Shown piece after piece: positions 2,709-64,000 of a stretch of DNA of 64,000 nucleotides. The notes under the pieces were generated by a model. It saw only the letters and a list, made by a program, of their open reading frames with translations, did no database searches and had not been told where the DNA came from. The DNA lies in assembly GCF_001886815.1 (NCBI RefSeq), contig NZ_CP018099.1:124001-188000 (forward strand), written 5' to 3'. The DNA is from Caldithrix abyssi DSM 13497. Lineage in GTDB: Bacteria; Calditrichota; Calditrichia; Calditrichales; Calditrichaceae. The position numbers and the translations under genes are program-made. Every line of letters begins with the position of its first letter. Position 1 is the stretch's first letter.

Positions 2709-3728
2709 CTATTTAAAAGTAAAATAAAACGTAAGGCGACCCATTACATCCGTATTGATTTCATCATTTTCGTACATTACGATTTCCACGTTGGGGATCA
2801 GATGCGCGTTTGAGCTCAGCGAATAATCGACGCCGGCAATGGCAACAGTGGCCGGAGATTGATTGGAGATCGGTAAATAATCGATATCCGGCCCTTCGGG
2901 AATTTTGTCGAATATTTTATCCACTCGCAGGAGCGTCGTCCACTGGTTGTTTATGTTGGCCCTGAAAAAAGCAGAGATGAGCGTTATTCCCACGTCGCTT
3001 TGGTTTGCGTATTGCCGCGTTTGATGTAAATATTGAAGACCGGCCCTGACCGACTGGCTTTTAAAGCCCGCGAATCCCTGATATGTCCATCGCTTCTCGT
3101 CAGTCGAGCGTTGTTCATAGTCTGCGTAGCCTTCAATCAAAATGTTTTCGCTCAAGTTAATACCGGCTGCGGCCATTCCCTTTTTGTATTTGTTCGTTTC
3201 GCTCTTTTGACCGTTACCGTTCCCAAACATAATGTGGTAAAAAAAGCGCTTGTTCTGCCCCACAGCTCCCTTTACGGCCAGGCCGGTTTCGCGCGAGCTG
3301 CTTAATTTGTACAGGTCGGCCGGTGTCTTTTCAACGCTACGATAGCCCCAGATTTTTTCAATAAGCGCAAAGGTGGGCGAAGGAGAAATGCCCAGTAAAA
3401 ATTGCGTTTGTTTAAAACGGTACTTTAAAAAGGCGTCTTTTACAAAAGGTACGGCCGCGCTTTTAGTGGAAAAGTCGCCGGGATGGCCCATTTCTAATCG
3501 TACCCGCATGGAAAGATTTTCTGCCAGTCCCTGATCGTACGTTAAGTAAATTCTTCGAAACCAGAAGCCGTTCATCTCTTCAATCTCAGAACTATGATTA
3601 GAAAACATGTAGTAATAATCGCCGAAAGCAAGGCCGCTGATCGAACCGCGACTTGCTCCATCGGCCAGAGCAATGTTAAAAAATAGGAAAATGAAAAAAA
3701 AGCATCGGATGGCGCTAAATATTTTCAT
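2709..3728 (-). CDS. Outer-membrane porin, phosphate-selective O/P-like
   Basis: A 339-residue exported protein. Residues 1-23 form a signal peptide (basic start, long Phe/Leu core, cleavage near ALADGA). The body alternates short hydrophobic strands with polar turns, and the chain ends in GRLTFYFTFK, an aromatic last strand typical of barrels handled by the BAM machinery. Segments such as FWFRRIYLTYDQGLAENLSM and VPFVKDAFLKYRF resemble the OprO/OprP porin family, which takes up phosphate or pyrophosphate. The gene has its own terminator. Upstream at 3782-3809 are three direct repeats at 11-base period like those before the phosphate transporter at 63 kb. The barrel call is solid; phosphate specificity is inference. 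Confidence 0.75.
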   Translation of the reverse strand: MKIFSAIRCFFFIFLFFNIALADGASRGSISGLAFGDYYYMFSNHSSEIEEMNGFWFRRIYLTYDQGLAENLSMRVRLEMGHPGDFSTKSAAVPFVKDAFLKYRFKQTQFLLGISPSPTFALIEKIWGYRSVEKTPADLYKLSSSRETGLAVKGAVGQNKRFFYHIMFGNGNGQKSETNKYKKGMAAAGINLSENILIEGYADYEQRSTDEKRWTYQGFAGFKSQSVRAGLQYLHQTRQYANQSDVGITLISAFFRANINNQWTTLLRVDKIFDKIPEGPDIDYLPISNQSPATVAIAGVDYSLSSNAHLIPNVEIVMYENDEINTDVMGRLTFYFTFK

Positions 3729-3781
3729 GTTAACCCCTTATTAGATTTACATTAAAAAGATGTTTGAAATTTAATAATAAC

Positions 3782-3809
3782 TATTAGATTTTTGTTAGAT
3801 TATTGTTAA
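3782..3809 (-). promoter_or_regulatory. Triple 11-base direct repeat, putative Pho box before porin
   Basis: Read toward the porin gene, the cores TTAACA, CTAACA and CTAATA start exactly 11 bases apart (3809, 3798 and 3787). PhoB boxes in Proteobacteria and PhoP boxes in Bacillus are also direct repeats with this period. The block ends 53 bases before the porin ATG, a sensible position for an activator site next to a promoter. A degenerate pair, TATTAG and CATTAA (forward strand), again 11 bases apart, lies at 3739-3755. A matching triple is found at 62913-62939. Confidence 0.5.
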
Positions 3810-4074: not shown

Positions 4075-5748
4075 ATGAATAAATTTGATAAAATTGAAGC
4101 GCAGAAACGGAAGTGGGAAGACACCACGCTTAAAAAAGTGATTGATCGTTTTCCCGAACAAAAGGAACAGTTTACCACCGGTTCCTGGCTGCCGGTCGAG
4201 CGGCTGTATTTGCCTCGACCAGTCAGCGAAGAAGAGTATCTTAAACAGGTTGGCTTCCCCGGAGAATTCCCGTTTACACGGGGCGTTCAGCCGACCATGT
4301 ACCGCGGGCGTTTTTGGACCATGCGCCAATATGCCGGTTTCGGTACGGCCGAAGAATCCAATAAGCGTTACAAATATTTGTTAGAGCAGGGCCAAACCGG
4401 CTTGAGCGTGGCCTTTGATCTGCCCACGCAAATCGGTTACGATTCGGACGATCCGCGCAGCGTGGGCGAGGTCGGCAAGGTTGGCGTGGCCATTGACAGT
4501 CTGGAAGACATGGAAATTTTGTTCGATGGCATTCCGCTGGACAAAGTCTCCACTTCTATGACCATCAATGCGCCAGCGGCTGTTTTGCTCGCCTTTTACA
4601 TTGCCGTGGCCGAAAAGCAGGGCGTCGCCAGGGATCAGTTGAGAGGCACCATTCAGAACGATATTTTAAAAGAATACATCGCGCGCGGCACCTACATTTT
4701 TCCGCCCAAACCTTCGTTACGGCTGATCACCAATATTTTTGAATTTTGTTCGCGCGAAGTGCCAAAATGGAATACCATCAGTATTTCCGGTTACCACATT
4801 CGGGAAGCTGGATCCACGGCTGTGCAAGAAGTGGCCTTTACCCTGGCCGACGGAATGGAATATGTTAAAGCGGCCGTAAACGCCGGCCTGGATATTGACC
4901 AGTTTGCCGGACGATTGTCCTTTTTCTTCAATGCCCACAACGATTTGTTTGAAGAGGTGGCCAAGTTTCGCGCCGCCCGAAGAATCTGGGCCAAAATCAT
5001 GAAGGAGCGTTTTGGCGCAAAAAATCCAAAATCGATGATGTTGCGCTTTCATACGCAAACCGGCGGCAGCACCTTAACCGCCCAGCAGCCAGACAACAAC
5101 ATAGTGCGCGTGGCCATTCAGACCCTGGCGGCCGTGCTGGGCGGCACGCAGAGTTTACACACCAATTCCAGGGACGAAGCGCTGGGCCTTCCAACCGAAG
5201 ATTCGGTTCGTATTGCCCTGCGCACGCAGCAGATTGTCGCTTATGAATCGGGCGTTACCAATACGGTCGATCCGCTGGCCGGTTCGTATTTTATTGAATC
5301 TTTAACAGACAAAATTGAAGAAGAGGTGTGGAATTACATAAACAAAATTGAAGAAATGGGCGGCATGGTTTACGCCATCGAAAAAGGTTATGTGCAAAAA
5401 GAAATTCAGGACGCCGCTTACCGGTACCAGCAGGAGGTGGAAAAGGGCGAACGCGTGGTGGTTGGCGTGAACAAATTTACGCTTGATCATGAAGCGCCGA
5501 AAGAAATTTTGCGCGTCAATCCGCAATTGAGAAAAATCCAGTCCGAAAGGCTGGCCCGCCTGCGCAGCAAACGGGACAACCAGGCGGTGAAGCGCGCTCT
5601 GGAAGCGCTGCGTCAGGGCGCCAGAGACGAAACGGTTAATTTGATGCCCTTAATTTTAGATGCGGCTAAAGCTTACGCCACACTGGGCGAAATTTCCAAT
5701 GTTCTGCGAGAGGTGTTCGGAGAATATCAGGAATCGATTGTACTTTAA
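4075..5748 (+). CDS. mcmA1: Methylmalonyl-CoA mutase, catalytic (large) subunit
   Basis: Catalyses the B12-dependent interconversion of succinyl-CoA and (R)-methylmalonyl-CoA in the cytoplasm. The 557 residues cover only the TIM-barrel substrate domain. The signature runs from [20 protein letters not shown] through [19 protein letters not shown], then [32 protein letters not shown] and [14 protein letters not shown]. The cobalamin-binding domain is absent and is supplied by the separate gene at 5871, the split arrangement known from archaea and several bacteria. It is first in an operon with the B12 subunit, MeaB, epimerase and decarboxylase. The ATG at 4075 has a good ribosome-binding site. 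Assignment is confident; the direction of flux is not set by sequence. Confidence 0.95.
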
Positions 5749-62822: not shown

Positions 62823-63139
62823 TCCTCAGCTCTTTTTAGGCTATTTGAAGTCCCCGGACCTTTTTAAAAAGTACCGCCAGTTTTGTAAAAAACAAAGAAG
62901 AATATTTTTTTTCTAACCTTTTTTTAACGTTAGTCTTACCGCAGCTAAAAAAGAAGTTGATTAATAGCCTTTTACGCGGTTTTTCTCCACCATTCTAAAG
63001 ACAATGGGCCGCGGCCGATCAAAAAAGCCAGGTTAAGAATTATTTTTTGAAAAATACTTTACCGTTTGTTAATTTCAAATTTGTGAATTTAGGGATAATC
63101 GTTGAAATAGAAACTGAAAGCAAAAAAAAGGAATGATAA
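62823..63139. other. Intergenic: leader region of the phosphate transporter
   Basis: The 317 bases contain no gene. The direct-repeat block at 62913-62939 lies about 200 bases before the transporter start. A GGCCGCGGCC palindrome is found at 63007-63016. AAAAGG occurs 8 bases before ATG 63140. Confidence 0.45.
62913..62939 (+). promoter_or_regulatory. Triple 11-base direct repeat, putative Pho box before Pit
   Basis: CTAAC at 62913, TTAAC at 62924 and CTTAC at 62935 are each 11 bases apart and read toward the phosphate transporter. A further CTAAA starts at 62945. Core and period match the block before the porin at 3782-3809. The distance of about 200 bases to the start codon implies a long leader. 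Confidence 0.5.
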
Positions 63140-64000
63140 ATGGGAATTGAGTTTTACTACTATGCAGTTTTGATTCTGGCCATGTTTGCCGTTTTCGACA
63201 TCGTTGTTGGCGTTAGTAATGATGCCGTTAACTTTCTGAATTCTGCCATTGGCTCGAGGGTTGCTCCTTTTTATGTGATTATGATCATTGCAGGTCTTGG
63301 TCTTGTTTCGGGCGTAGTTTTTTCCAGCGGCATGATGGAGGTAGCCCGTAAGGGAATCTTCCATCCGCAATTTTTTACCATGCCCCAGTTAATTGTGCTT
63401 TTTCTGGCTGTAATGATTAGCGACGTTATTTTGCTGGACGTCTTTAACAGTTACGGTCTTCCTACTTCCACCACGGTTTCGGTTGTATTCGAGCTGCTGG
63501 GCGCGGCCGTTGCTATTTCTTTAATAAAAATATTTTCTGAAAGTCAGTCTATCGCCATGCTGGCTGAGTACATCAACACCAGCAAAGCGTTGATTATTAT
63601 ACTTGGTATTTTACTCAGCGTGGGCATTGCTTTTATTGTAGGAGCGATTGTTCAGTTCTTAACGCGTCTGCTTTTTACATTTGATTTTAGCAAACGGCTG
63701 AAAAAGTATGGCGCCCTGTGGGGGGGGCTGGCCCTGGCTTTTATCACCTATTTCATTTTGATTAAAGGCGCTAAAGGCGCTGCTTTCATTACGCCGGAAA
63801 TGTTAAAATGGATTCAAACGCACGCCTTTAGTATGCTGGCTATCATCTTTGCGGTTTCGGCCATATTTTTGCAGATATTGATCTTTTTAAATATTAATAT
63901 TCTCAAACCCATTGTATTGATTGGAACGTTTGCTCTGGCCATGGCCTTTGCCGCCAACGATCTGGTTAACTTCATCGGTGTGCCCATGGCTGGCTATCAC
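63140..64000 (+). CDS. pit: Inorganic phosphate transporter, Pit family, cut by window edge
   Basis: The frame is open from ATG 63140 to the window end (287 residues). The Pit signature occurs in both halves: DIVVGVSNDAVNFLNSAIGSR (about 20-40) and ALAMAFAANDLVNFIGVPMAG near the edge, with many hydrophobic segments between. Pit proteins import phosphate with H+ or Na+. SYGLPTSTTVSVVFEL is the conserved loop after the fourth segment. The C-terminal part lies outside the window. The upstream direct repeats suggest phosphate-dependent control. Confidence 0.92.
   Translation, partial: MGIEFYYYAVLILAMFAVFDIVVGVSNDAVNFLNSAIGSRVAPFYVIMIIAGLGLVSGVVFSSGMMEVARKGIFHPQFFTMPQLIVLFLAVMISDVILLDVFNSYGLPTSTTVSVVFELLGAAVAISLIKIFSESQSIAMLAEYINTSKALIIILGILLSVGIAFIVGAIVQFLTRLLFTFDFSKRLKKYGALWGGLALAFITYFILIKGAKGAAFITPEMLKWIQTHAFSMLAIIFAVSAIFLQILIFLNINILKPIVLIGTFALAMAFAANDLVNFIGVPMAGYH

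Follow-up and report, generated by a model that had tools for sequence, protein, structure and literature searches.

The window (the whole 64,000-nucleotide stretch of Caldithrix abyssi DSM 13497 DNA analysed here) carries near one end a gene for an outer-membrane porin of 339 aa with a predicted 16-strand barrel (positions 2709–3728, minus strand), and a gene for a 752 aa Pit-type phosphate transporter (Pfam PHO4; plus strand) that starts at 63140 and continues beyond the window end at 64000. Upstream of the porin gene and on its strand lies an array of three six-base boxes, TTAACA-ataat-CTAACA-aaaat-CTAATA (3782–3809), in which TTAACA (3809–3804), CTAACA (3798–3793) and CTAATA (3787–3782) succeed one another at exact 11-base steps, with 53 bp between the array and the ATG at 3728. 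A preliminary description of the window had reported repeats of this period aimed at the porin, and others of the same step before the Pit gene (62913–62939); letters and spacing were confirmed in both places, as was the orientation of the porin array. A second, weaker cluster, CAAACA-TCTTT-TTAATG-TAAAT-CTAATA (3739–3766, minus strand), scores 15.0 bits, the second best in the window, and may be a secondary binding site. Weaker clusters between main array and porin start codon were seen in three genomes (window 3739–3766, L100 near 8980 and L105:6542–6613), and secondary boxes are similarly placed before the porins of G002 and G006. The divergent neighbour of the porin, a methylmalonyl-CoA mutase gene (4075–5748, plus strand; assigned by Pfam), keeps its synteny with the porin in both congeneric genomes, G001 and G002. 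We rejected this gene as a target of the array, which points to and sits near the porin in all three congeneric genomes.

A scan of the genome for the triple repeat, as had been proposed in the preliminary description, bore the pattern out. In the single contig of 4,978,541 bp (4.98 Mb) there are three exact matches to YTAAYA-N5-YTAAYA-N5-YTAAYA and none in the reversed control, and the three precede the porin, pstS (the only one found in this genome) and a TonB-dependent receptor. A loose pattern allowing up to two mismatches was not enriched (25 matches vs. 40 in the control), hence only exact or profile-scored sites were used. A one-mismatch match (L012, 2423548) was not aimed at a nearby gene start and was treated as chance. 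Under a weight matrix trained on 16 sites, with porin sites excluded, the window porin site scores 34.0 bits; under the same matrix 10 Mb of simulated AT-rich intergenic sequence yielded no position of at least 25 bits and one of at least 20. The site also outscored all 5000 dinucleotide shuffles of the porin's own intergenic region. Chance does not come near to accounting for the porin block.

The exact triple box at pstS stands 60 bp before the PstS gene heading pstSCAB-phoU, that at the SusC-like TonB receptor 68 bp before its gene, and the best one-mismatch match elsewhere in the genome is found 58 bp before a two-gene operon encoding an OmpR-family regulator and a kinase. A genome-wide scan with a sequence-only profile built from 19 sites ranked the same four at the top (pstS 21.6, porin 19.0, phoB-type regulator 16.7 and TonB receptor 16.4 bits), the fifth site scoring 13.0. 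All four are in coding orientation, at 60, 53, 58 and 68 bp from their start codons, a narrow range of 53–68 bp in this genome, and no common −10 element at a fixed distance was demonstrated amongst them. The response regulator of the two-gene operon, encoded at G000 C1 3916066–3916758 on the minus strand, has PhoB (TIGR02154) as its best NCBIfam match, at 248 bits and below the cut-off of 296, as expected for a divergent phylum, whilst its partner kinase exceeds the cut-off of the PnpS phosphate sensor (NF046044; 414 vs. 400 bits), and PstS, PstC, PstA, PstB and PhoU each exceed an NCBIfam cut-off. Four leading sites at porin, pstS, phoB-type pair and TonB receptor, all coding-oriented, are what one sees in a Pho regulon that is small and controls its own regulator.

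The porin is assigned to no family by Pfam or NCBIfam. It has no match to Porin_O_P (PF07396), to which 29 of the 43 aligned members of its family give weak matches, with E values no higher than 0.1 and 1.9e-06 at best, and a sequence search of the PDB with the porin profile gave spurious matches only. Its AlphaFold2 model (pLDDT 92.6) is a barrel of 16 strands. Porins of 16 strands match this structure best, and the leading group, whose members are tied within about 1 Z unit, includes the anion-selective Omp32 as well as the phosphate porins OprP/OprO. Several Arg/Lys residues are invariant in the family. We traced the family through GTDB genomes, with 80 loci available for gene context and 79 for the box search. 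The porin gene stands directly upstream of pstS in 22 of the 80 loci, across many phyla and often with phoBR upstream, and it has a link to pst or pho genes in 29 of them; the adjacency to pstS suggests a phosphate porin, and the window porin is therefore probably a phosphate/anion porin of the Pho regulon from an uncatalogued family. The phosphate role rests on this gene context, not on the fold. The same genome encodes a paralogue (G000:C1:3037446-3038450; L106:7444-8457) which lacks Pho boxes and sits beside a multihaem cytochrome gene, so that a different role is likely for it.

Conservation amongst relatives separates the boxes from the DNA around them. Both congeners found to carry the porin gene retain its boxes (18/18 letters in G001, 17/18 in G002) with changed spacers, and before pstS the triple box is kept, again with changed spacers, in the congener G001, in another genus (G008) and in another family (G018). 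Boxes also precede the phoB-type gene in seven genomes (G001, G002, G008 and G015–G018). Across genera the letters within the boxes are conserved whilst the spacers diverge, and several related boxes sit in GC-rich surroundings. A stricter pattern applied to 40 Calditrichota genomes gave 16 matches against one in the control, 14 of them before genes for PstS (4), PhoB-type regulators (5), porins (2), TonB receptors (2) and a Na/Pi cotransporter (1). As some of the sites used to train the profile had come from the pattern search, the independent evidence is the identity of the genes and not the score, and the fairer test is provided by profile matches outside the training set (E ≤ 0.1): 8 of these 11 precede OmpR/PhoB-type regulators (4), TonB receptors (2), Pit (1) and PstS (1). 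In G008 the genes phoB, phoR, a Porin_O_P porin, pstS, pstC, pstA, pstB and phoU are consecutive, and in G006 a boxed porin is followed by pstS and then, judging by sequence, by more transport genes. No box was found before porin homologues in several other Calditrichota families. The porin array has three marks of a Pho box, namely 11-bp direct repeats, sharing with pst and phosphate two-component genes, and conservation at orthologous genes.

Some boxes in these relatives have other settings. Strong triple boxes are inverted relative to porin-like genes in G014 (L099:7695-7843) and G013 (L200:1501-1528), with no evident gene opposite; simple activation does not explain these arrays, which possibly mark repression or a small transcript that is missing from the annotation. 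In G019 an acetyl-CoA synthetase gene has a perfect triple box 46 bp upstream (L095:1501-1528), and the boxed pstS of G018 has a similar acs gene as its divergent neighbour (L046:515-2416 and 2671-2698), which may reflect either a link between phosphate and acetate or chance. In G005 (L205:880-902), two perfect boxes stand 12 bp before the gene of a 208-aa protein without a Pfam match.

The block before the Pit gene is of another order. Its boxes, CTAAC (62913–62917), TTAAC (62924–62928) and CTTAC (62935–62939), follow one another every 11 bases exactly, 200 bp upstream of the Pit start codon at 63140, and as a full candidate, CTAACC-TTTTT-TTAACG-TTAGT-CTTACC (62913–62940, plus strand), they match the consensus at 14 of 18 letters. 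The block scores 5.6 bits, against 21–38 for accepted sites, a score that was matched in 47 of 5000 shuffles of Pit's own region (p about 0.01) and reached about 990 times per 10 Mb of simulated intergenic sequence, and it is absent from the genome-wide profile matches. The preliminary description had allowed that chance might explain each block alone; this holds for the Pit block, which alone is not beyond chance, and fails for the porin block. That the block is a genuine Pho box of low affinity, or one that represses Pit, is a doubtful reading, somewhat favoured by the block's rank as the sixth best position (third best place) in the 64 kb and by good boxes at two Pit orthologues in other genera, and disfavoured by the low score, the missing profile match and the closest orthologue, in G001, whose upstream sequence of only 111 bp holds no box. 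The boxed orthologues are those of G014, with CTAACA-N5-CTAATA-N5-CTAACC at −46 (17/18 letters, 17.6 bits), so near the start codon that it would also suit repression, and of G005, with two perfect boxes at −136 that the profile also found blind (E 0.037). More distant Pit-family relatives in the phylum (L071–L082) have no clear boxes. Pit is plausibly a regulon member in some relatives, and in this genome is at most a weak or uncertain one.

We consider it very probable, on the evidence of sequence comparisons, that 3782–3809 is an operator of this bacterium's phosphate-starvation (Pho) regulon. The porin repeats are read as phosphate-regulator sites because the same rare pattern stands before pstS and before the regulator's own genes, and recurs in relatives. 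The two shared repeats from which such a regulon was originally proposed have parted company: the porin repeat is strongly supported as a Pho operator by the same triple repeat before pstS, the phoB/phoR-type pair and the TonB receptor, whilst the Pit repeat falls below any accepted site. Both regions are AT-rich and the Pit block is within the reach of chance, which invites the view that the repeat arose by chance, or is a phased A/T-rich bend, in promoter DNA rich in A and T; we give this almost no credence for the porin, whose score went unreached in the 5000 shuffles and the 10 Mb of simulated sequence, and whose box letters persist whilst spacers change, with several related boxes in GC-rich DNA. 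A regulator of the same broad family with another purpose deserves slightly more weight, and is still very unlikely. Direct repeats of 11 bp are general to the OmpR/PhoB family, WalR-type boxes look similar to these when the other strand is read, and the kinase also matches the WalK model, at 378 bits far under its cut-off of 725, so that the boxes might bind a WalR-like protein controlling envelope genes rather than phosphate uptake. The targets speak against this, being pstSCAB-phoU, the phoBR-like pair itself, a Na/Pi cotransporter, Pit and PstS-linked porins, as does the kinase's score above the PnpS (phosphate) cut-off.

In a Pho regulon of this kind, scarcity of phosphate would lead the PhoR/PnpS-like kinase to phosphorylate the PhoB-like regulator that shares its operon at another chromosomal locus. 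Three regulator molecules would then bind head-to-tail through their winged-helix domains, one per 11-bp repeat, lined up on the same side of the helix immediately upstream of the core promoter. Once bound, the regulator would recruit RNA polymerase, so that porin, PstSCAB-PhoU, TonB receptor and phoBR would be switched on together. The site, its rarity, position and orientation, the gene set sharing it, its cross-genus conservation despite divergence of the spacers and the existence of the two-component pair were all computed; beyond these we infer which protein binds, that phosphate is the signal, and that binding activates the genes and does not repress them.

The boxes are not confined to this phylum. 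Upstream of porin-family genes, boxes with at least 16 of 18 letters occur in 20 of 79 loci, where the antisense strand gives 1 and reversed sequence gives 2. They span several phyla, Aminicenantes, WOR-3 and Acidobacteriota among them. The preliminary description had suggested a variant box for this phylum, which stands only in part: TTAACA-type boxes, of the Bacillus PhoP kind, are also found upstream of this porin in other phyla, and Calditrichota are set apart by a preference for C as the first letter. Amongst 60 Calditrichota boxes 44 begin with C and 16 with T, whereas other phyla show 1 C and 40 T in the promoters of their pst-linked porins; the sequences compared are related, and the p-value of the comparison is therefore not a true probability. 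A T at the head of each hexamer, as in the Bacillus-type PhoP box, is not seen at the window site, where the first box begins with T and the other two with C. The recognition helix of the Calditrichota regulators reads VDVQIVGLRKKL or VDVQVVGLRKKL, and that of other phyla mostly VDVHIKHLREKL. We hypothesise that the change in box letters and the change in recognition helix belong together. A fuller proposal, to which we would commit ourselves only halfway, is that a Calditrichota CTAACA-type Pho box co-evolved with a changed PhoB recognition helix (VDVQIVGLRKKL in place of the VDVHIKHLREKL found elsewhere), in a regulon led by a widespread, uncatalogued phosphate porin family that adjoins pstSCAB and phoBR in many phyla.

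Our literature search found no paper joining Calditrichaeota and the Pho regulon, and the C. abyssi genome paper mentions neither Pst nor PhoB nor any Pho regulon. The predicted operators would thus supply a testable Pho regulon for a phylum for which the searched literature names none, assign a likely phosphate role to a porin family unnamed by Pfam and NCBIfam, and present a clean example of an operator and a recognition helix that may have changed in concert.

Several known systems resemble this one in part. The Bacillus subtilis PhoP box, as given in PMC12404567 (citing Liu and Hulett 1998), is TT(A/T/C)ACA-N4-6-TT(A/T/C)ACA. Like it, the Calditrichota boxes are directly repeated TTAACA-type hexamers, spaced by 5 bp and placed upstream of pst and phoPR-type genes, but they differ in their preference for C at position 1 (44/60), their tolerance of T at position 5, their three repeats, and their place before outer-membrane porin and TonB receptor genes. 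The cyanobacterial SphR Pho box consists of three or more tandem CTTAACCT (PMC1906773), and is alike in its three tandem repeats and TTAAC core; it differs in its letters (CTTAACCT there, YTAAYA here) and in its gene set. PhoB-type regulators bind 11-nucleotide direct repeat units head-to-tail, and the E. coli PhoB Pho box is composed of CTGTCAT 11-bp repeats (PMC4415409). The likeness here lies in the 11-bp direct repeats, an OmpR-family regulator (whose binding in Calditrichota is predicted), autoregulated phoBR and pstSCAB-phoU, whereas the letters differ and there are three repeats rather than two. The window porin resembles the Pseudomonas phosphate/polyphosphate porins OprP/OprO (PF07396) in its 16-strand fold (Z about 24.5) and phosphate regulon context, but has 339 aa compared with 411 and more, no PF07396 match and a sequence identity of 10–12%. 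Finally, SusC/TonB receptors of Flavobacterium are induced by phosphate depletion (PMC8115612). In the present genome a TonB receptor with CarbopepD_reg_2 and Plug domains is similarly placed in the predicted phosphate regulon, the link being the operator sequence only, and by analogy its apparent membership fits the low-phosphate induction seen in Flavobacterium.
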